A stretch of 29,062 nt of DNA. Source: Candidatus Poribacteria bacterium. GTDB taxonomy: Bacteria > Abyssobacteria > SURF-5. The stretch lies in the NCBI GenBank assembly GCA_016215705.1, contig JACRIR010000149.1, forward strand, positions 1 through 29,062. Direction: 5' to 3'. This document shows, piece after piece, positions 3,389 through 16,317 of the stretch. The notes beneath the pieces were generated by a model. It did no database searches, had not been told where the DNA came from, and saw only the letters and a program-made list of their open reading frames with translations. Made by a program: the position numbers and the translations under genes. The number at the start of each line of letters is the position of its first letter. Within the stretch, counting starts at the first letter, position 1.

Positions 3389-4447
3389 ATGCCGGCCAAA
3401 TGGGAGCATCCGGGCGGTAAACTGAGAGAGCTGGGGGCGGGGGCTCTCACGGACGCGGACGAGTTTCATCCGACATCCGTACTAAAACATCCCTTTCTCC
3501 AAACTGTTCTAGGCGGCAGCAAGTTGCGCAAGTTGGGAAAGAACCCTATGCTGTCAGCCGCCCGGAAAATGATACTCGAAACGTGCGAACGTGTTCGCCT
3601 CATCGGCCACTATTCTCCACACCCCGAAGCCAGAGGACTTGTGATCCTTTTGAACGGCTGGCTGGGAGATTCGGGTTCAGCATACATCGCCGGCACAGGC
3701 AAATATCTGTATCAAAATGGCTACAGCGTTTTCAGACTCAACTACCGGGATCACGGTGACAGTCATCATCTCAATAGCGGGCTCTTCTATGCAAGCTTGT
3801 TGGAGGAAGTGTTTGAGTCCGTCCGCCAGGCGGCATCCATTGAAAAGGGCCGGGCGGTCTTTCTGGCCGGTTTTTCGCTTGGGGGAAATTTTGCTCTTCG
3901 CATCGCCCACCAATGCGCGACAACCCACATTGAGAATCTGAAGCACATCGTCAGCATCAGCCCCCTCCTTGATCCGGACAAAACAACGGATACCGTTGAC
4001 AGTGATAAGCTCATCCGTGCCTATTTCTTGAAAAAATGGCGCCAATCCCTCTTGAAGAAGCAGTCCCTTTTCCCTGAAAAATACGATTTTAGTGGTATCC
4101 TTAACAACAACTATATCCGCATCATGACCGAGGAGCTTCTAAAACGATACGGCCCCTATGAAAGCGCGCGGCAATATTTCCAAGCTTATGAAATCAAAAA
4201 CGACGCGCTCATGACCATACCGGTTCCGACCACCATTATTACCGCCGAAGACGACCCCATCATTCCCGTGGCGGATTTTCATCGACTTGAACTGAATCGC
4301 CTGACAAAGCTTGTGATTCACCAGCATGGGGGACATAACGGGTTCATAGAGAGCTTCAGGCTCAGTACATGGTACGAAAGAAATATGGTATATCTTTTTA
4401 ATGAGATTGTCGGCGTCACAGAAAAAGACGTGAGGACATACCTATGA
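3389..4447 (+). CDS. Alpha/beta hydrolase, YheT-like
   Basis: Predicted serine hydrolase of 352 residues with no signal peptide, so probably cytoplasmic. It opens the core with GLVILLNGWLGD (oxyanion-hole region). It carries the nucleophile elbow GFSLGG at about residue 167, a candidate acid in TAEDDPIIP near residue 290 and a candidate base in HQHGGHNGF near residue 312. This order and the YRDHGDS segment after the second strand resemble the YheT/EMB8-type esterase group. The substrate is unknown. GGGAGGGGATG lies just before ATG 3389 and supports this start. The stop codon overlaps the start of the small YqaE-like gene by four bases (ATGA), so the two are probably translated together. Confidence 0.85.
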   Translation: MPAKWEHPGGKLRELGAGALTDADEFHPTSVLKHPFLQTVLGGSKLRKLGKNPMLSAARKMILETCERVRLIGHYSPHPEARGLVILLNGWLGDSGSAYIAGTGKYLYQNGYSVFRLNYRDHGDSHHLNSGLFYASLLEEVFESVRQAASIEKGRAVFLAGFSLGGNFALRIAHQCATTHIENLKHIVSISPLLDPDKTTDTVDSDKLIRAYFLKKWRQSLLKKQSLFPEKYDFSGILNNNYIRIMTEELLKRYGPYESARQYFQAYEIKNDALMTIPVPTTIITAEDDPIIPVADFHRLELNRLTKLVIHQHGGHNGFIESFRLSTWYERNMVYLFNEIVGVTEKDVRTYL

Positions 4448-4605
4448 GTCTTGGCCGCGCCATCCTATGTATCCTTCTCCCTCCCCTGGCGGTTCTGGAT
4501 AAGGGTTGTGGCTCGATAATCATAGTGTCTGTGCTTACACTGTTAGGTTGGGTTCCCGGCATAATCGGCGCCCTTATCATATGCAAGAAAGACCGTCCCG
4601 CGTGA
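4444..4605 (+). CDS. Pmp3/YqaE family small membrane protein
   Basis: A 53-residue protein. Residues 5-18 (RAILCILLPPLAVL) and 29-47 (SVLTLLGWVPGIIGALIIC) match the two transmembrane helices of the Pmp3/YqaE (UPF0057) family, including the ILLPPLxV and LTLLGxxPGIIxA signatures. Family members sit in the cytoplasmic membrane and in yeast and plants affect membrane potential and salt tolerance; the bacterial role is poorly known. ATG 4444 overlaps the stop of the preceding hydrolase (ATGA), which implies translational coupling. The loop between the helices (DKGCGS) is short, as is normal for the family. The length and motif order make a chance ORF very unlikely. Confidence 0.9.
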   Translation: MSLGRAILCILLPPLAVLDKGCGSIIIVSVLTLLGWVPGIIGALIICKKDRPA

Positions 4606-4816
4606 AGGACGTCCGCCCGGCGTTGCTTCTAAGATTCCAGGAACACAATACTAAACATGATTATTGCGCAATATAGCTTATGATTGCGCGCCCATTTCGC
4701 TAGCTTACCTGCCCTTTCGTGGCCACAAGTTCCACTGCCGCCTTCGCCTTACTCCTTTCGTTTATCCGGGAAGTCCCCGGCCTTGCTGAAAGAGTTTCAA
4801 AAGACTCCAGCGCCCC

Positions 4817-4845
4817 TTGACAAGAAAAGGGGCTTATGGTACAAT
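4817..4845 (+). promoter_or_regulatory. Strong sigma70-type promoter for the MarR gene
   Basis: TTGACA (4817-4822) and TACAAT (4840-4845) are separated by exactly 17 bases. An inverted repeat GCCCCTT (4812-4818) / AAGGGGC (4827-4833) embraces the -35 box. The expected transcription start near 4852 falls inside the 29-base palindrome described next. Confidence 0.8.
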
Positions 4846-4870
4846 ATGTTTTGATGTTCAAACTATATTG
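4842..4870. promoter_or_regulatory. Palindromic operator, probable MarR autoregulatory site
   Basis: A 29-base imperfect palindrome with arms CAATAT-N2-TTTGA and TCAAA-N2-ATATTG around a 3-base centre; 22 of the 26 arm bases are paired. It overlaps the -10 box and the predicted transcription start, the usual place for a repressor. The core TTTGA-N3-TCAAA recurs at 5377-5389. MarR dimers bind such sites, and the FabT branch, as I recall it, uses the same half-sites. Confidence 0.7.
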
Positions 4871-4914
4871 AAATGCGCATGAAAAGCCGCGCGGCTTGTA
4901 CCGGGGACGCAATC

Positions 4915-5349
4915 ATGGAAGAAATGGCAAAAGCCCTCAATGAGTATCTCCTTCAGGTCGCCGAAAACCTGCCCCTGTTCGAGCAGTTCAACCTGAAAAG
5001 AAGCGTTCTGAACAAGAACCTAACGGTGCAGGAAATCCACACCATCGCCCTCATCGGAAGACTCGACTCGCCGAAAATGTCGCAGGTCGCCGAGAGAGCG
5101 CATGTCACAATGGGGACCATGACCGTCATGGTGAACAAGCTCGTGAGAAAGGGCTATGTGAGAAGGTCTCGCCCGGATAAAGATAAGCGCGTTGTCCGCG
5201 TGAGTTTGACCGCAAAGGGGGCCCGCGTCGAGAAGCTCCATGAAGAATACCACAGTAAGACCATTGCCCGGATCATGACCGTGCTCGAAGAATCGGAACA
5301 AAAGCAGTTGCTCAAGCTCATGCAGAAGGTGGTGGCGGCCCTCGGCTGA
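4915..5349 (+). CDS. MarR family transcriptional regulator
   Basis: Winged-helix repressor of 144 residues, the normal size for MarR proteins. The core reads LTVQEIHTIALIG (helix leading into the reader), SPKMSQVAERAHVTMGTMTVMVNKLVRKGYVRRSRPDKDKR (helix-turn-helix plus wing, given in pieces, with the conserved DKR wing tip), and a C-terminal dimerisation helix rich in Glu, Lys and Leu. ATG 4915 is preferred because GGGGA (4903-4907) lies seven bases before it; an in-frame ATG at 4873 lacks any ribosome binding site and would add 14 unconserved residues. The gene has its own strong promoter with an overlapping palindrome, so it probably represses itself. A second copy of the palindrome core just downstream suggests that it also controls the secreted hydrolase at 5537. 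The effector ligand is unknown. Confidence 0.9.
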   Translation: MEEMAKALNEYLLQVAENLPLFEQFNLKRSVLNKNLTVQEIHTIALIGRLDSPKMSQVAERAHVTMGTMTVMVNKLVRKGYVRRSRPDKDKRVVRVSLTAKGARVEKLHEEYHSKTIARIMTVLEESEQKQLLKLMQKVVAALG

Positions 5350-8718: not shown

Positions 8719-8748
8719 TTGACAAATTATGACTGGATCGGCTATTAT
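8719..8748 (+). promoter_or_regulatory. Promoter of the riboswitch-tupA transcript
   Basis: TTGACA (8719-8724) and TATTAT (8743-8748) are 18 bases apart. It is the only strong promoter that I see before the first riboswitch, about 215 bases upstream. Transcription would start near 8755. Confidence 0.6.
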
Positions 8749-8962
8749 AGCACAGCTTTGACGCCGGGAAGCTACTGCATCGCAATGGCGCCGCGTCACG
8801 CATGTGGCATGGTCAATTGTGAAAGAAAGATGCGACGAAGGTATGATCCGTAGCGTCATCCTGAGCGAAACGAAAGACCAGCAAAGCGAAGAGTCTCTTC
8901 TTTGTCTTTTTCCCCTTTCGCCTTGCTCCTTTCGCCTTTCGCCTCTTTCTTGGTAGCGCTCC

Positions 8963-9070
8963 TAATTCTCCGATTCTATACGCATAAGGCCGCGTGAAAA
9001 AGGCTATGGCGGTTGAACGGCAGGTGTGGAGGGAAACGTCCACGCCACCCATCCTCGGAAAGGAGAATTA
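8963..9070 (+). promoter_or_regulatory. Moco/Tuco-type riboswitch, first of two
   Basis: The aptamer matches the molybdenum-cofactor RNA motif: a closing stem TAATTCTCC (8963-8971) / GGAGAATTA (9062-9070), perfect over nine pairs; a small stem ACGC (8980-8983) / GCGT (8992-8995); the core GAAAAAGGCTATGGCGG; a hairpin GGTGTGGA (9023-9030) / TCCACGCC (9039-9046) capped by GGGAAACG; and the hallmark 3' end GCCACCCA...CGGAAAGGAG. The class binds Moco or its tungsten analogue. Which of the two is bound here cannot be read from the sequence, but the downstream tungstate-binding gene favours tungsten. A terminator follows 23 bases later. Confidence 0.88.
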
Positions 9071-9093
9071 AGACGAGCGGGCATTCATTTATT

Positions 9094-9125
9094 GCCGGTT
9101 CCATGAGGATGGGACTGGCCTTTTT
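9094..9125 (+). terminator. Intrinsic terminator of riboswitch 1 (expression platform)
   Basis: GCCGGTTCCAT (9094-9104) and ATGGGACTGGC (9109-9119) form an 11-pair stem with two G-T wobbles and a GAGG loop, followed by TTTTT (9121-9125). The loop plus 3' arm GAGGATGGG (9105-9113) is the exact complement of CCCATCCTC (9048-9056) in the aptamer. The same bases can therefore form either an antiterminator or the ligand-bound aptamer plus terminator, which predicts ligand-OFF control. Confidence 0.85.
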
Positions 9126-9242
9126 CATTTTGGATTCTGGCCTGAAAGAACAACATTGAATCGCGCAAGACGCCTGACGCGACGAGAGGGAAGGTGAATC
9201 AAAGTAGAGTGAGATAGCCGGCTCGGCTACAGCAGTCATGTG

Positions 9243-9348
9243 ATTTCTCCGATTCAACGCGCCTAAGGCCGCGCGAAAAAGGCTATGGCGGTTGAACGGC
9301 AGGCGCCGATGGAAACGTTTGCGCCACCCATGATCGGAAAGGAGAAAT
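9243..9348 (+). promoter_or_regulatory. Moco/Tuco-type riboswitch, second of two
   Basis: Near-identical core to the first copy: closing stem ATTTCTCC (9243-9250) / GGAGAAAT (9341-9348); CGCGC (9258-9262) / GCGCG (9271-9275); GAAAAAGGCTATGGCGG; hairpin GGCGC (9302-9306) / GCGCC (9321-9325) with GGAAACG; and GCCACCCA...CGGAAAGGAG. The stems differ from copy one by paired substitutions, so both copies keep their fold. The unchanged core suggests that both bind the same ligand. It sits about 330 bases before tupA. Confidence 0.88.
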
Positions 9349-9359
9349 GGTGGAGTCAC

Positions 9360-9394
9360 GCCAGTTCCATGAGTCATGGGGACTGGCCGTTTTT
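9360..9394 (+). terminator. Intrinsic terminator of riboswitch 2 (expression platform)
   Basis: GCCAGTTCC (9360-9368) pairs with GGGACTGGC (9379-9387), and inner CCATG/CATGG can extend the stem; GTTTTT-ATTTT follows. TCATGGG (9374-9380) can instead pair with CCCATGA (9327-9333) of the aptamer, repeating the switch logic of copy one with different bases. Confidence 0.83.
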
Positions 9395-9396
9395 AT

Positions 9397-9676
9397 TTTG
9401 CATTTCGGACTGCTCTTGTCAAGAGCAATTGAGAAGAATGTCGTGAATCCTCTCATAACACGGGGCTCTCGTGCGTATTTCGAGAGGACACTCCTCCCCG
9501 GGGTCGGCTTCAGAAGTGACGATGATTGCAATGCTTCTCAACCACGGAGAGCATGGGAGAATGCGGTTCCTGGTGGGAAAACTTCTTTTTGCCAGTCGAT
9601 TTTCTCTTTGCGCCCTTTGCGCCTTTGCGGTGAATAAAGCTGTTTTGGACAGCAGTTACTTACGGAGGTAATGGAG
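9397..9676 (+). other. Leader between second terminator and tupA
   Basis: It holds a small perfect hairpin GCTCTT-GTC-AAGAGC (9413-9427) and a copy of the CTTTGCGCC repeat (9604-9631), then the ribosome binding site GGAGG (9664-9668). A 96-codon frame from 9347 begins inside the riboswitch and runs through the terminator and the repeat; I do not regard it as a gene. Confidence 0.5.
9604..9631. repeat. CTTTGCGCC-type dispersed repeat, copy 1
   Basis: A 28-base sequence CTCTTTGCGCCCTTTGCGCC... is found again unchanged at 27129-27156. It has an internal direct repeat of TTTGCGCC. Confidence 0.7.
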
Positions 9677-10516
9677 ATGAAACGATTAATTGTCTTGTTC
9701 GTGACGTTGGTAAGTATCCTGTTCATCTCACAACAAGGCCTGGCCGAACAGCGGCTCAGGCTCGCGACAACGACCAGTACCGAGAACACCGGTTTGCTCG
9801 CGATGTTTCTTCCTCCATTCGAGCAGAAGTATGGCATCAAGGTCGACGTGATTGCCGTAGGCACCGGGAAAGCCCTGAAACTTGGCGAAAACGGCGACGT
9901 TGACGTAGTGCTGGCACATGCTCGCTCGGCGGAAGACGAGTTCATACAGAAAGGCTTCGGCGTAAACCGGCGTGACGTGATGTACAACGATTTTGTGATT
10001 GTCGGCCCGAAGACTGACCCCGCCGGAATCTCCAAAGTTAAGAACGTCGATGACGCCTTCAAACTGATTGCTCAGAAAGAGGCAATCTTTGTATCCCGTG
10101 GCGACGAATCCGGAACACACATAAAAGAAAAAGATGTGTGGAAGGCCGCCGGAATCAAGCCGACCGGCAAGTGGTACGTGGAAGCAGGTCAAGGGATGGA
10201 GGCCGTCCTTGTGATGGCGGACGAGAAGAACGCCTACACGCTTACCGACAGAGCGACGTGGCTCGCGCACTCCGAGAAATTCGATCTTGGGATTCTTCTG
10301 CAGGGTGATCCGGCGCTCTTCAATCCGTACGGAATAATTGCCGTAAATCCCGCAAGATATCCGAGCGCGAACTACATGGGCGCAATGCTCCTGATTGCTT
10401 GGTTCACGTCGCCCGAAGGCCAGAAAATGATAGGCGACTTCAAAAAGAACGGGCAGATGCTGTTTGTGCCCGTGGCAGTCCCGACCGAAGGCCCAAAGGG
10501 AAAGACGAAAGACTAA
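9677..10516 (+). CDS. tupA: Tungstate ABC transporter substrate-binding protein TupA
   Basis: Periplasmic oxyanion-binding protein of 279 residues that captures tungstate with very high affinity in the TupABC family. A signal peptide spans about residues 1-24 (KRLIVLFVTLVSILFISQQGLAEQ, in pieces). The mature protein opens with LRLATTTSTENTGLL, the TupA-type TTTS motif that contacts the oxyanion, followed by AVGTGKALKLGENGDVDVVLAHA, FVIVGPKTDPAGI, SRGDESGTHIKE and DRATWLA, all in family order. ATG 9677 lies eight bases from GGAGG (9664-9668); the in-frame ATG at 9671 is only two bases away and less likely. Two Moco/Tuco-type riboswitches with terminators precede it, so the gene should shut down when cofactor is plentiful. 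The usual permease TupB and ATPase TupC are absent from the window, which is unusual. A related phosphate- or molybdate-binding role is possible but less likely. Confidence 0.9.
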   Translation: MKRLIVLFVTLVSILFISQQGLAEQRLRLATTTSTENTGLLAMFLPPFEQKYGIKVDVIAVGTGKALKLGENGDVDVVLAHARSAEDEFIQKGFGVNRRDVMYNDFVIVGPKTDPAGISKVKNVDDAFKLIAQKEAIFVSRGDESGTHIKEKDVWKAAGIKPTGKWYVEAGQGMEAVLVMADEKNAYTLTDRATWLAHSEKFDLGILLQGDPALFNPYGIIAVNPARYPSANYMGAMLLIAWFTSPEGQKMIGDFKKNGQMLFVPVAVPTEGPKGKTKD

Positions 10517-10970: not shown

Positions 10971-13082
10971 ATGAATAGGCTGATTGTGGGAATCGTGTTG
11001 CTTGTCACGCTTTTTTCAAGCCCGGCATGGTGTGAGGAAGCAGCGCAAGAGGAGACTGCTGCTCCTTCATCTGGCGATGAGATGGTTGCGGCGGCAAATG
11101 CCAACCCGGAAAGCGTCACGGAAGCCGGGTACGAGGTGTACACGCTGGGAGAAGTAGTCGTCACGGGCGAGCGCGAGATTGTCGAGTCGGTGGGCGTCGT
11201 ACGTGAGATCACGGCGGAAGACATCAAGAGCAAAGGCGCAAGAACATTGGATGAAGCGCTTTACTTGCTGCCCGGCCTCATTGTCAGAAACGGGGCCGAA
11301 GGCATTCCGCGAATTGATATGAGAGGTTTCCGGTCAAGACACGTGATACTTCTCCTGGATGGGATTCCACTCAATTCGACTAATGATGGGCAATTCGACC
11401 CTTCTCTGATTCCCGTCGAGAACATCGCGAAGATAAAGGTCAGTTATGGCGATCACTCTTTGCTCTATGGCGCCGGAGGGCTGGGGGGAGTAATCAATAT
11501 TATTACGAAAAAGGGCGCTGAAGGCATTCACGGCAGCGCGTCCGCCGAGGCAGGCACAGGCGACAATGCGCTTGGCCGCTTCACGGTTTCAGGAGGACGC
11601 AATCTCTTTGGCGGTCGCCAGAAGGCTGACTTCTTTGTCGGCGGGAGTGCGCTCGACCGGCATGCCCTACCCCTTTCCGGTGATTTCGACTCGACCTCGG
11701 AAGAGAACGGCAGCCTGCGCGAGAATAGTGACAAAGAAAGAGAAAATGTCTTCGCCAACGTCGGATATACCCCGAATGACGAATGGCAACTCGGAGTCGT
11801 CGTGAACTACGCTCAGGGAGAGTTCGGGATTCCTCCAAGCACGATAAACAATGCGGCGGACCCGTTCGCCGACAAACCCAAGTTTGAGAGAGTCGATGAC
11901 TTCGAGGAGATTTCCGGACAGTTCTCCGTGAACTACGACGTGCCCGGTCCATTGGGTCTGAGGGCGTGGGTTTTCGCCAACCAGATGGACGAGGAAAGAA
12001 ATCGGTACGATGACGACAACTTCGATTCGATGGACGACCCGACCATCAAGGGCACATTCCATGAGAATGACACAACCCTCATAAGCGGCGCAGCGATTCA
12101 AACAACATATGATCTGGAATCATACGGCAAGCTCACGTTGGGGTTGAACGCTCGCAGTGAAGAGTTTGACTCCGACGGCAGAATTCGAGATGTCGCGGTT
12201 AGCGGTGGTGGTGGCGGCGGAGCCAAGAAGTTCAACTTCAGAGATTTTGACGAAGACCATGACTTGCAGGTATTCTCTGCCGCACTCGAATATGAGGTGT
12301 CACCCATCGACAAGCTCGGCCTGGTTTTGGGATACAGCCACAACTGGTTGGACAATGACGAAGGAGATAACGACGACGCGGGAAGCTTTCTTATCGGCTC
12401 GTATTATGATATTTTGAAGGATACCCGGATCAGAGGATCGGTCGCGAGGCAGGTCAGGTTCCCAACTATCCGGCAACTTTTTGATGAAGACGGAGGGAAT
12501 CCCGACCTGACCACCGAGAAATCCTATAATTATGAACTAGGAGTCGATCAAACCCTCCCGTGGAACAGCCAGGTGAGTCTGACCGGATTCTTCATCGACG
12601 TCAAAGACTTTATCGAGAAGTCGGACCAGACCGATCTGTTCGAGAACAATGACAAGTATCGGTTCCAAGGGTTCGAGTTGACTGCGGAAACGCGATTCAT
12701 CGAGAATCTGCTGCTAAGCGCAGGCTACACGTTCCTGGACACTGAAGATAAGTCCCCCGGAACGGAGAAAGACGAACTCCAATATCGCCCAAAACACAAG
12801 GTCACTCTCGAGGGCCGATACTATTTCGCGTTCGGACTTTCCGCGTATGCAAGTGTCAGCCACATAGCGGACCAGGTCACATACTCGAAAACAACGCCCC
12901 TACTCAAGAAGGATATGAATGATTACACGCTCGTCAGCGTGAAACTTGAGCAGGCATTTCTTGATGGATTATTGAACCTGTATGTTGGAGTCGATAACGC
13001 CTTTGATGAGGATTATGAGGAGAGCTACGGTTTCCCCTCGCCGGGAAGATTCATTTACGCGGGTGGCGAGGTTCGGTTCTAG
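10971..13082 (+). CDS. TonB-dependent outer-membrane receptor
   Basis: Outer-membrane active transporter of 703 residues, powered through TonB. Residues 1-22 are a signal peptide (NRLIVGIVLLVTLFSSPAWC). A TonB-box-like YTLGEVVVTGE (about 55-65) leads into the plug domain (about 65-170: EDIKSKGARTLDEALYLLPG, MRGFRSRHVILLLDGIPLN, YGAGGLGGVINIITKKG). The rest forms a 22-strand-type beta barrel, ending in the outer-membrane insertion signature GGEVRF. GGGAGGAGAAGG immediately precedes ATG 10971. The acidic loops (for example DEERNRYDDDNFDSMDD) may affect ligand choice. Upstream lies tupA and downstream, after 158 bases, an ECF importer, so the three may serve one ligand. The substrate is not deducible from the sequence; siderophore, cobalamin and oxyanion-chelate uptake are all possible. 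Confidence 0.9.
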   Translation: MNRLIVGIVLLVTLFSSPAWCEEAAQEETAAPSSGDEMVAAANANPESVTEAGYEVYTLGEVVVTGEREIVESVGVVREITAEDIKSKGARTLDEALYLLPGLIVRNGAEGIPRIDMRGFRSRHVILLLDGIPLNSTNDGQFDPSLIPVENIAKIKVSYGDHSLLYGAGGLGGVINIITKKGAEGIHGSASAEAGTGDNALGRFTVSGGRNLFGGRQKADFFVGGSALDRHALPLSGDFDSTSEENGSLRENSDKERENVFANVGYTPNDEWQLGVVVNYAQGEFGIPPSTINNAADPFADKPKFERVDDFEEISGQFSVNYDVPGPLGLRAWVFANQMDEERNRYDDDNFDSMDDPTIKGTFHENDTTLISGAAIQTTYDLESYGKLTLGLNARSEEFDSDGRIRDVAVSGGGGGGAKKFNFRDFDEDHDLQVFSAALEYEVSPIDKLGLVLGYSHNWLDNDEGDNDDAGSFLIGSYYDILKDTRIRGSVARQVRFPTIRQLFDEDGGNPDLTTEKSYNYELGVDQTLPWNSQVSLTGFFIDVKDFIEKSDQTDLFENNDKYRFQGFELTAETRFIENLLLSAGYTFLDTEDKSPGTEKDELQYRPKHKVTLEGRYYFAFGLSAYASVSHIADQVTYSKTTPLLKKDMNDYTLVSVKLEQAFLDGLLNLYVGVDNAFDEDYEESYGFPSPGRFIYAGGEVRF

Positions 13083-13240: not shown

Positions 13241-14677
13241 ATGGAAAACCGAGTCCTACAAGTAGCCGATTTCTCATACAAATACAGGGGAGCGCCGACC
13301 CCGGCTGTTTGCAACGTTTCGCTCACGGTCGGGGCAGGCGAATGCCTTTGTCTGACGGGTCCTTCGGGCTGCGGAAAGACGACGCTCCTCCTTGCGATTC
13401 AAGGCCTACTGAGGGACGGGCTTTCCTCAGGCGCCGTCCGGGTCAGCAAGAATGGAAGCGGTTTTGATGTTGGCATGGTTTTCCAGAATGCTGATTCGCA
13501 GATACTCTGTTCAACCGTCGAGGAAGAAGTCGCATTCGGTCCTGACAACATGGGGCTCTCGTCTGATGAAATCGAGAAGCGTGTGCACAAAGCCCTTGAA
13601 GCCGTCGAAATGGAAGATTTTGAGCGGAGAAACGTTGAGACGCTCTCTGCCGGCGAAAAACAGCGACTGGCTATTGCATCGGTCCTCTCTTTGAACCCGC
13701 ACTTGTTACTTCTCGATGAGCCGACAAGTCAACTTGATGCCCCCGGCAAGGAACAACTGCTAACTGCTCTCAAGAAACTCAAGGAACAGGGTCGGGCGTT
13801 GCTTATAGTTGATCACGACCTTACGATGTTCAGTGACATCGCGGACCGAAGCATTTTCATGGAAAGTGGGCGATTATGCGACAGCACCATGAACTGTGCA
13901 CCTGCGCCCAACTCCGTTATGCCCCCTTCCTCAAACACTCCTTTTGTCACCTCGTCTCATACTGTCTCACCGACTCCTGCTATCCCCCCTTTCGCAAAGG
14001 GGGGGAGGGGGGATTTAGCTTGTCCTCTCGCAATTGACATCGACGGCCTCTGCCTCTCAGGGCATAGTGGGCATCCTGTCTTTAAGAATACTCGGCTGAA
14101 AATTCGCCGGGGAGAACTCGTTCATCTTTTCGGCTACAATGGCGCGGGAAAATCCACTTTGCTGAGGCTCATGGTAGGGCTCGACTCACCGGAGGAGGGA
14201 AGAATCCGCATTGCCGGCGTAGAGTCGCCCCGCCCCCAGCAACTCCCGGGAAAGGTGAGCCTGCTGTTTCAGAACCCGCAGAGACATTTTTTTGAAGATA
14301 CCGTCGGCGCGGAAGCAGGATTCGCACTCGCGAGGATGGGGCTTCCCCCCGAAGAACGTCGGTTGCGAGTCGAGCAAGCCCTGGCGTTTTGCGAGGTCTC
14401 CGATTTTGCAGAACGCTCGCCGCTGACATTGAGTTTCGGCGAACAGCATCGGGTGGCCTTGGCGTCGGTCATTGCGCCTCAGCCCGAGATTCTGTTGCTC
14501 GATGAGCCTTTCTCAGGGCTGGATTTTGCCCGAAGGCGCCGTGTGTTATCGTTCCTGTCCGAGGTCCGCCGCCGGTTTGGGACCACGGTCGTAATTGCAT
14601 CACATGATCCCTTATTCGATCCGCAGTGGGCGGACCGAAGACTCCTCTTGAGAAATGGCAAGATTGAAGACGTATAA
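13241..14677 (+). CDS. ECF transporter ATPase, fused double domain (EcfA-EcfA')
   Basis: Single chain of 478 residues holding both ATPase domains of an energy-coupling-factor importer. Domain 1: Walker A GPSGCGKTT (40-48), Q-loop VFQN, signature LSAGEKQR (136-143), Walker B LLLLDEPTSQLD and H-switch IVDHDL. Domain 2: Walker A GYNGAGKST (299-307), LLFQNP, signature LSFGEQHR (399-406), Walker B ILLLDEPFSGLD and ASHDP. The LSFGE of domain 2 departs from LSGGQ/E, as the second site often does. The linker (about 215-262) is low in complexity and contains IPPFAKGGRGDL, which is the in-frame translation of a palindromic repeat at 13983-14016. It overlaps ecfT by 23 bases if ATG 14655 is used. ATG 13241 lacks a clear ribosome binding site. 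The ATPases bind EcfT in the cytoplasm. Confidence 0.92.
   Translation: MENRVLQVADFSYKYRGAPTPAVCNVSLTVGAGECLCLTGPSGCGKTTLLLAIQGLLRDGLSSGAVRVSKNGSGFDVGMVFQNADSQILCSTVEEEVAFGPDNMGLSSDEIEKRVHKALEAVEMEDFERRNVETLSAGEKQRLAIASVLSLNPHLLLLDEPTSQLDAPGKEQLLTALKKLKEQGRALLIVDHDLTMFSDIADRSIFMESGRLCDSTMNCAPAPNSVMPPSSNTPFVTSSHTVSPTPAIPPFAKGGRGDLACPLAIDIDGLCLSGHSGHPVFKNTRLKIRRGELVHLFGYNGAGKSTLLRLMVGLDSPEEGRIRIAGVESPRPQQLPGKVSLLFQNPQRHFFEDTVGAEAGFALARMGLPPEERRLRVEQALAFCEVSDFAERSPLTLSFGEQHRVALASVIAPQPEILLLDEPFSGLDFARRRRVLSFLSEVRRRFGTTVVIASHDPLFDPQWADRRLLLRNGKIEDV
13983..14016. repeat. CCCCCTTTNNAAAGGGGG repeat inside ecfA linker
   Basis: TCCCCCCTTTCGCAAAGGGGGGG followed by AGGGGGGATTT matches the repeat at 24411 and 28957. 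It lies in frame between the two ATPase domains. Confidence 0.85.
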
Positions 14678-15413
14678 GGAATCATTGTTGAGACAACCCA
14701 CAGGACATGCGTACCAGTTCCGCGCCACGGACTCGCCAATTCACAGGCTTGGCGCTGGTTGGAAAGTGGCAATCGGCTGCCTCCTGAGCGTCGCAGCCTT
14801 TGCCGCTCGAGAACCGTGGGTGCTGGCAGGACTGCTCCTTCTCAACGCCTTTTATTATTTCCTTGCGCGCTTGAAGCTTGCCGATTTCTGGCGTGACACA
14901 CGGTTCTTCGCAGTCCAGATGATTATCATTGTGTCCCTGTACCTGCTGCGCTTCGGCGTTGCAGACGGTCTGTGGCCCGGCGCGCGAACTGCTCTGCAGA
15001 TATTGTTGTTCTTTGTGCCAGGCGTTGTCTTGCTCCGGACTACGCAAACCCGCGAAATGGCGCAGGGGCTTCGGCGCGTATTGTCGCCGCGTATGTCTTT
15101 CGTGGTCTTTTCGAGTCTCCGGTTTGTTCCCTTCTTCGCGCGCGAGCTTCGGGAGATCACGATGGCGCAGCGGCTTCGCGGAGCGCCCCTGAATTTTCCG
15201 CGGTGCATCTATCCCTGGAACTGGAAGGACGTCTTTCATTGCCTGGCTATTCCTTTGATTGTTCGTGCGCTGAAGACAGCCCATGACGCCGCCCTTTCCG
15301 CTGAGGCGAGAGGGTTCGGGCGACAAACGAGTTGCGAGTCTCGGGTTCCGGGTCGTCTCCTTCCGCAGAGACAAGAAAACTCGTCAAGCAATGCGGAAAA
15401 ATCCCCCTTCTGA
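14655..15413 (+). CDS. ecfT: ECF transporter transmembrane coupling protein EcfT
   Basis: Membrane scaffold of the ECF importer (252 residues), linking the ATPases to the substrate-binding S component. It shows the family start SPIHRLGAGWKVAIG, four or five hydrophobic helices (about 35-130 and 200-215), and the two cytoplasmic coupling helices with their Arg signatures: AQRLRGAPL near residue 175 and SAEARGFG near residue 215, which fit the ATPase grooves. ATG 14655 overlaps the ATPase gene by 23 bases; TTG 14688 with AAGGA (14676-14680) is an alternative start that would remove an odd N-terminus. The C-terminus is abnormal: the last residues (NAEKSPF) and the stop come from a CCCCCTTCTGACAAAGGGGG repeat, so the normal tail has been cut or extended by insertion. 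The coupling motifs are intact, so function is probably retained. Confidence 0.87.
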   Translation: MARLKTYKESLLRQPTGHAYQFRATDSPIHRLGAGWKVAIGCLLSVAAFAAREPWVLAGLLLLNAFYYFLARLKLADFWRDTRFFAVQMIIIVSLYLLRFGVADGLWPGARTALQILLFFVPGVVLLRTTQTREMAQGLRRVLSPRMSFVVFSSLRFVPFFARELREITMAQRLRGAPLNFPRCIYPWNWKDVFHCLAIPLIVRALKTAHDAALSAEARGFGRQTSCESRVPGRLLPQRQENSSSNAEKSPF

Positions 15414-15507: not shown

Positions 15508-16317
15508 GTGAGAGCGTTGATTGCCATCGACGACACTGATAATCAGGAAAGCGTCGGTACAGGAAGACTGGCGCGCATGTTGGCCGACTTCCTCGCCGAG
15601 AAAGGGCTCGTGAACAAGAGCAGCGTAACGAGACATCAACTTCTCGTTCATCCGGATATTCCTTATACGTCGCATAACAGTTGTGCATGTATAGAAGCTG
15701 AAATCCTCCCTTACCCCCCTTTAGCGAATGCAAAGAGTGAGGAGCGACCTTTGGTAGGCAGGGGGATTGACGGGAGTCCTTTGCAAAAGACGGATGTGGA
15801 GAATTCGGTCGAGGAAATCGCAGCGTACTCGATGGCATTCCTCATCGAAAACTATCACGAAGGCGCTGATCCCGGGTTGTGCGTGGTTGACGGAGCGGCT
15901 GTGCCCGCAGCCTTGCCGGAATTCGGCTTTCGGGCGCAACGGGAGGTCATCAAGACCGACGACGCAAAGAGGCTTGCGGAAGAACTCGGCGTGTTCACTT
16001 GGTGGAGTGGCGAACCCTGGCGCGGATGCATTGGGGCGATGGCGGGCGTCGGCCTCAGAAGCACGGAAAACGACGGACGCTTCATCGGGCTTGACGGCAT
16101 ACGCGAGCTTAAGGGGACTCTGTGCGTAAGCGAAATTATCCGCAGCTCGCGCATCAGGCGAGTCGCCACCGCCTCGGGACAGACATTGGATGACCGTGAA
16201 ATCGTGGATACACAGAATTGGGCCAGGCCCTCGCTGCTTCAGGGCGAGGCTGTCCTGGTTGTGGTAAAGCACGGGGATGTCTGGCGCCCCGCCGAAGACA
16301 AGAAGGGAAAACCGTGA
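15508..16317 (+). CDS. IDDTDN-motif protein with TiaS-like N-terminus, function unknown
   Basis: Protein of 269 residues, cytoplasmic by lack of signal or helices. It opens with RALIAIDDTDNQESVGTGRLAR, as do archaeal TiaS (tRNA-Ile2 agmatinylcytidine synthetase) proteins, and has TSHNSCACIE and GADPGLCVVD motifs. The TiaS zinc ribbon and tRNA-binding tail are not visible, so a tRNA role is doubtful. It is sandwiched between EcfT and the putative S component, which suggests a job in the import system, such as processing the ligand (inference). GGAAGGA (15492-15498) nine bases before GTG 15508 decides the start; the TTG at 15481 is upstream of that site. Residues about 65-98 (LPYPPLANAKSEERPLVGRG and onward) are an in-frame repeat-derived insertion. 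Confidence 0.7.
   Translation: MRALIAIDDTDNQESVGTGRLARMLADFLAEKGLVNKSSVTRHQLLVHPDIPYTSHNSCACIEAEILPYPPLANAKSEERPLVGRGIDGSPLQKTDVENSVEEIAAYSMAFLIENYHEGADPGLCVVDGAAVPAALPEFGFRAQREVIKTDDAKRLAEELGVFTWWSGEPWRGCIGAMAGVGLRSTENDGRFIGLDGIRELKGTLCVSEIIRSSRIRRVATASGQTLDDREIVDTQNWARPSLLQGEAVLVVVKHGDVWRPAEDKKGKP
15701..15768. repeat. Degenerate CCCCCTTT repeat inside the IDDTDN gene
   Basis: AAATCCTCCCTTACCCCCCTTT on the left and GGGGGATT on the right are the outer arms of the repeat family, here about 38 bases apart and diverged. It is read through in frame. Confidence 0.55.

Follow-up and report, generated by a model that had tools for sequence, protein, structure and literature searches.

The P3-less type of the Moco/tungsten-cofactor riboswitch (RF01055) was described by Regulski et al. 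in 2008 and linked to tungsten metabolism, tandem copies being present in S. wolfei and G. metallireducens; for the S. wolfei triple, a 'digital' mode of control was proposed (PMC2408646). A survey of tandem riboswitches published in 2022 classes tandem Moco and Wco RNAs as pseudo-cooperative and counts 13 Moco doublets and 2 triplets (PMC9481103). We have analysed a further case in a genomic stretch of 29,062 nt (the window), where a homotypic pair of P3-less RNAs of the Moco/Tuco class lies in the mRNA leader of a tupA-like gene and likely acts as two OFF attenuators in series. The pair has the composition of a pseudo-cooperative tandem: one aptamer class occurs twice, each copy has its own expression platform, and no gene lies between them, the 153-nt gap being too short for any gene of note.

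The two aptamers

It had been predicted from the letters that two Moco-class aptamers share this leader, and a search with the Rfam covariance models bears this out. Both segments match RF01055 over model positions 1-135 and exceed the gathering cut-off of 36 bits, while cmscan against Rfam returned no other RNA-family match in the whole window. In both alignments the P3 model positions are deleted, which makes both copies P3-less. The original prediction called the cores almost identical; they are indeed alike, but with 86% identity over 102 nt the wording is slightly strong. The predicted spacing of 172 bases is close to the about 177 nt measured from core to core (153 nt by the Rfam boundaries). 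An assembly duplicate can be ruled out, as the copies are only 86% identical, the linkers differ and the leader contains no N run. A recent local duplication likewise receives no support from the identity, copy 2 being 87% identical to a single copy on another contig of the genome (C220) versus 86% to copy 1.

The copies differ at one conspicuous position. Copy 2 has the GAAA tetraloop together with the complete canonical CCUAAG/UAUGG receptor. In copy 1, GGAAAC and UAUGG are present, while the remaining receptor half reads CAUAAG and not CCUAAG, with an A at position 8984 in a column where C is nearly invariant (25 sequences). Because of this non-canonical tetraloop receptor, copy 1 may bind the ligand poorly.

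Features of the tupA leader, and Porin_O_P genes at other tandem loci (positions refer to the window unless a locus is named)
Feature	Position	Strand	Details
Candidate promoter	8719-8748	+	TTGACA-N18-TATTAT; consensus scan, 11/12; ~200 nt upstream of copy 1
Copy 1, RF01055 match	8956-9081	+	50.4 bits, E 2e-9, full length (cmscan vs Rfam)
Copy 1, paired core	about 8966-9067	+
Copy 1, alternative-pairing strand	9048-9056	+	CCCAUCCUC; within aptamer P4/P5 region
Terminator 1 (intrinsic)	9094-9125	+	stem 9094-9119, 11 bp, -17.6 kcal/mol; T tract 9121-9125
Copy 1, partner strand	9105-9113	+	GAGGAUGGG; terminator 1 loop and 3′ arm
Copy 2, RF01055 match	9235-9359	+	58.9 bits, E 6.5e-12, full length (cmscan vs Rfam)
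Copy 2, paired core	about 9245-9346	+
Copy 2, alternative-pairing strand	9327-9334	+	CCCAUGAU; 8 bp with 9373-9380
Terminator 2 (intrinsic)	9360-9394	+	stem 9360-9387, -15.3 kcal/mol; T tract 9390-9394
Copy 2, partner strand	9373-9380	+	GUCAUGGG; inside terminator 2
tupA-like gene	9671-10516	+	tungstate ABC transporter substrate-binding protein, 281 aa; NF041772, PF12849
Porin_O_P gene, L140	3560-4954
Porin_O_P gene, L151	about 3894-5100	-
Porin_O_P gene, L152	835-2229

Terminators and alternative pairings

Each aptamer was expected to have its own intrinsic terminator, and a hairpin with a T tract does follow each copy, CTTTTTCATTT lying directly after the hairpin of terminator 1 and CGTTTTTATTTT directly after that of terminator 2; the proposed ends at 9125 and 9394 fit. 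A simple terminator scan reports terminator 1 and misses terminator 2, apparently because the stem of the latter is bulged. In both copies a strand of the aptamer is complementary to part of the following terminator, and this alternative pairing and the terminator are mutually exclusive. The complementarity of copy 1 is perfect (9 bp, -24.0 kcal/mol), and in both copies the pairing goes beyond what dinucleotide shuffles yield (p 0.0045 for copy 1 and 0.0040 for copy 2). The C220 copy shows it as well, and so do the RNAs of two relatives with one copy each (p 0.012, 0.042 and 0.019 against shuffles).

Two C-G pairs of the alternative helix in copy 1 are replaced by G-C and A-U in copy 2. We also exchanged the aptamer strands and terminators of five RNAs, and the copy 2 strand paired at -18.0 kcal/mol with its own terminator compared to -12.3 to -17.4 kcal/mol with the four others. 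Since two helix pairs have changed on both sides, each copy appears to retain its own working attenuator. The change in the terminator arm of copy 2 partly also extends its terminator stem, so that these changes suggest compensation but do not prove it.

The predicted default folds of the two copies differ. The minimum for copy 1 is the alternative pairing (-68.1 versus -58.8 with the aptamer enforced), whereas that for copy 2 keeps the terminator (-67.1 versus -61.4 with the alternative pairing enforced), in energies that leave out the ligand, tertiary contacts and the co-transcriptional order of folding. In these predictions a balanced switch in each copy does not emerge from folding alone. 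The predicted minimum of copy 1 further includes a pairing between AAAAAGGC in the P2 loop (8997-9004) and the complementary GCCUUUUU, which covers the terminator 1 arm and T tract (9118-9125); AAAAAGGC recurs in copy 2, where a G interrupts its partner.

We propose that at low cofactor levels the 3′ strand of the aptamer (CCCAU...) would pair with the 3′ arm of the next hairpin; with this pairing formed, the terminator could not form and the polymerase would pass. When the cofactor, most likely in its tungsten form, is bound, the 3′ strand would be kept in the folded aptamer, the terminator would form and transcription would stop, an OFF direction that we take from the anatomy of the leader. 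As transcription of tupA would require passage through both copies, each would decide independently and their readthrough fractions should multiply. It is plausible that two copies give tighter or sharper OFF control in this way: the response would become tighter and steeper, and tungstate uptake would be closed once the cofactor suffices. In other words, tungsten import is probably shut off sharply when cofactor is plentiful.

Gene context and competing explanations

The gene behind the pair, expected to encode a tungstate-binding protein, is indeed tupA-like by its matches to NCBIfam NF041772 (E 8.9e-75, 251 bits, which is under the curated 400-bit cut-off) and Pfam PF12849 (E 3.1e-47). The third RF01055 copy of the genome (L100, G000:C220, 5710-5836, - strand) is single and P3-less, has its own hairpin and alternative pairing, and precedes tupB and tupC. 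In two relatives of the same family (G001 and G002), one riboswitch precedes an intact tupA-tupB-tupC. With copies before tupA and tupBC here versus tupABC in the relatives, the tup operon is split in this genome, both parts being under predicted RF01055 control. Behind tupA lie genes for a TonB-dependent receptor (10971-13082), a double-ATPase ECF-type protein (13241-14677) and a CbiQ-like protein (14655-15413). Inclusion of the receptor and ECF genes in the regulated unit is unsupported; they begin about 450 bp from tupA, and in G001 a close homologue of the receptor is located on a different contig from its tupA.

The absence of P3, the position of all three copies in front of tup genes and nine aldehyde ferredoxin oxidoreductase (AFOR)-family genes in the genome, a family which we take to be tungsten enzymes, make the tungsten cofactor (Tuco/Wco) the most likely ligand; the known association of the P3-less variant with tungsten metabolism thus holds in this genome. 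The same observations make it unlikely that the RNAs respond to the molybdenum cofactor or to both forms, with the tup genes following total cofactor, even if the tungsten selectivity of P3-less RNAs is assigned by correlation only. Seventeen of the 19 organisms with P3-less RNAs also have genes of tungsten-cofactor metabolism, and when P3 was taken out of the E. coli RNA, regulation was disrupted but the specificity did not switch to tungsten (PMC2408646). Whether the copies act in series depends on their sharing a transcript. At the three single copies (C220, G001 and G002) the motif TTGAC[TG]-N17/18-TATAAT directly adjoins the aptamer, and a separate promoter for each tandem copy would similarly give two transcripts and no series action. 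We nevertheless consider this highly improbable for the pair: the consensus scan, which has other sigma factors outside its scope, finds no + strand site resembling a promoter in the stretch from copy to copy (9126-9235), and the site upstream of copy 1 is the only strong one on the + strand of the window. This distribution favours one transcript through both copies.

It is possible, if somewhat unlikely, that the set points are staggered, both copies working but differing in affinity or in the strength of their terminators, which would produce a two-step or broadened response and not a sharper one. The receptor substitution in copy 1 means that the set points may differ, and the lower score of this copy and the contrasting default folds point the same way. 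On the other hand, the energy differences between the copies lie within prediction error and, apart from position 8984, the core residues of copy 1 match. The lower score and the substitution could also indicate that copy 1 is a duplicate in decay, regulation being left to copy 2 only. Decay would however be expected to break the terminator and the pairing, and with a strong terminator and a perfect alternative pairing still present in copy 1 we regard this as very unlikely. Two working OFF attenuators in series remain our preferred reading. An extension of it would be that since the tup split TupA, under two differently tuned copies, is shut earlier or more fully than TupBC. We consider this quite doubtful, but if true the cofactor would govern the stoichiometry of the transporter and not merely its amount.

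Other tandem pairs and comparison with described systems

We searched for further tandem RF01055 pairs in 47 genomes picked for a tupA homologue and in 148 genomes of one phylum. The first sample has pairs in 3 of 47 genomes: one in Syntrophomonadaceae before a MOT1-type transporter, one in a deltaproteobacterium before Porin_O_P, tupABC and moeA, and one in Schekmanbacteria before tupABC, with an N run between the copies in the latter two. In the phylum sample 34 of the 148 genomes have a match above the cut-off and 3 of these 34 a tandem pair, two pairs lying before Porin_O_P genes with tupA downstream and one before an AFOR gene; to call tandem copies uncommon, as the original prediction did, is therefore fair. 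Tungstate or molybdate importer genes stand behind five of the six other tandem pairs, and that such pairs turn up repeatedly ahead of tungstate importers hints that tungsten uptake may be selected to be controlled tightly or sharply. We do not claim that tandem pairs are enriched at tup loci: the strict rule gave 2/3 tandem versus 15/60 single units (Fisher p 0.17), and the looser rule with gaps to 1.3 kb, which gave 4/5 versus 11/56 (p 0.011), was tried second and may include one case with a gene between the copies. Across 80 tupA loci searched with R1, a model built here for surveying only with a consensus structure lacking P1, an RF01055-like element was located upstream of tupA in a minority, and two of these leaders were tandem.

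Some of these loci deserve mention for their own sake. In three genomes, a gene for an outer-membrane porin of the Porin_O_P family separates the tandem RF01055 copies from tupA, and we consider Porin_O_P a candidate outer-membrane tungstate channel. At L153 (G119:C28, 588-901), a tandem RF01055 pair is found directly before the gene of an AFOR-family (tungsten) enzyme. Two divergent copies about 130 nt apart in G209:C121 (15584-15709, - strand, and 15840-15958, + strand) possibly serve two operons.

The closest described relative is the Syntrophomonas wolfei triple, which like the present pair consists of P3-less RNAs in series with terminators. It differs in having three copies with terminators after the first two and none noted for the third, compared to two copies and two terminators here, and in preceding a seven-gene operon that serves molybdopterin synthesis and the transport of molybdate/tungstate where our pair precedes a lone tupA (PMC2408646). 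The tandems of the 2022 survey are homotypic with multiple expression platforms, as is this one, but its tandem Wco RNAs are listed before hydrogenase and arsenic-response genes (PMC9481103), where the present pair and five of the six others precede tungstate or molybdate importers. Tandem TPP riboswitches, the model for pseudo-cooperative action, likewise present one class twice, each copy terminating or reading through, but they belong to another ligand class and have been tested experimentally (PMC9481103). A natural tandem with separate, apparently compensated attenuators should be a convenient object for testing tandem function, and the single copy at the partner genes tupBC in the same genome offers a built-in control. 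The arrangement is real but of a kind already described in 2008 and 2022 (PMC2408646, PMC9481103), to which this locus adds the apparently compensated attenuators, a split tup operon with two copies at one part and one at the other, and the repeated finding of tandem pairs ahead of tungstate importers.
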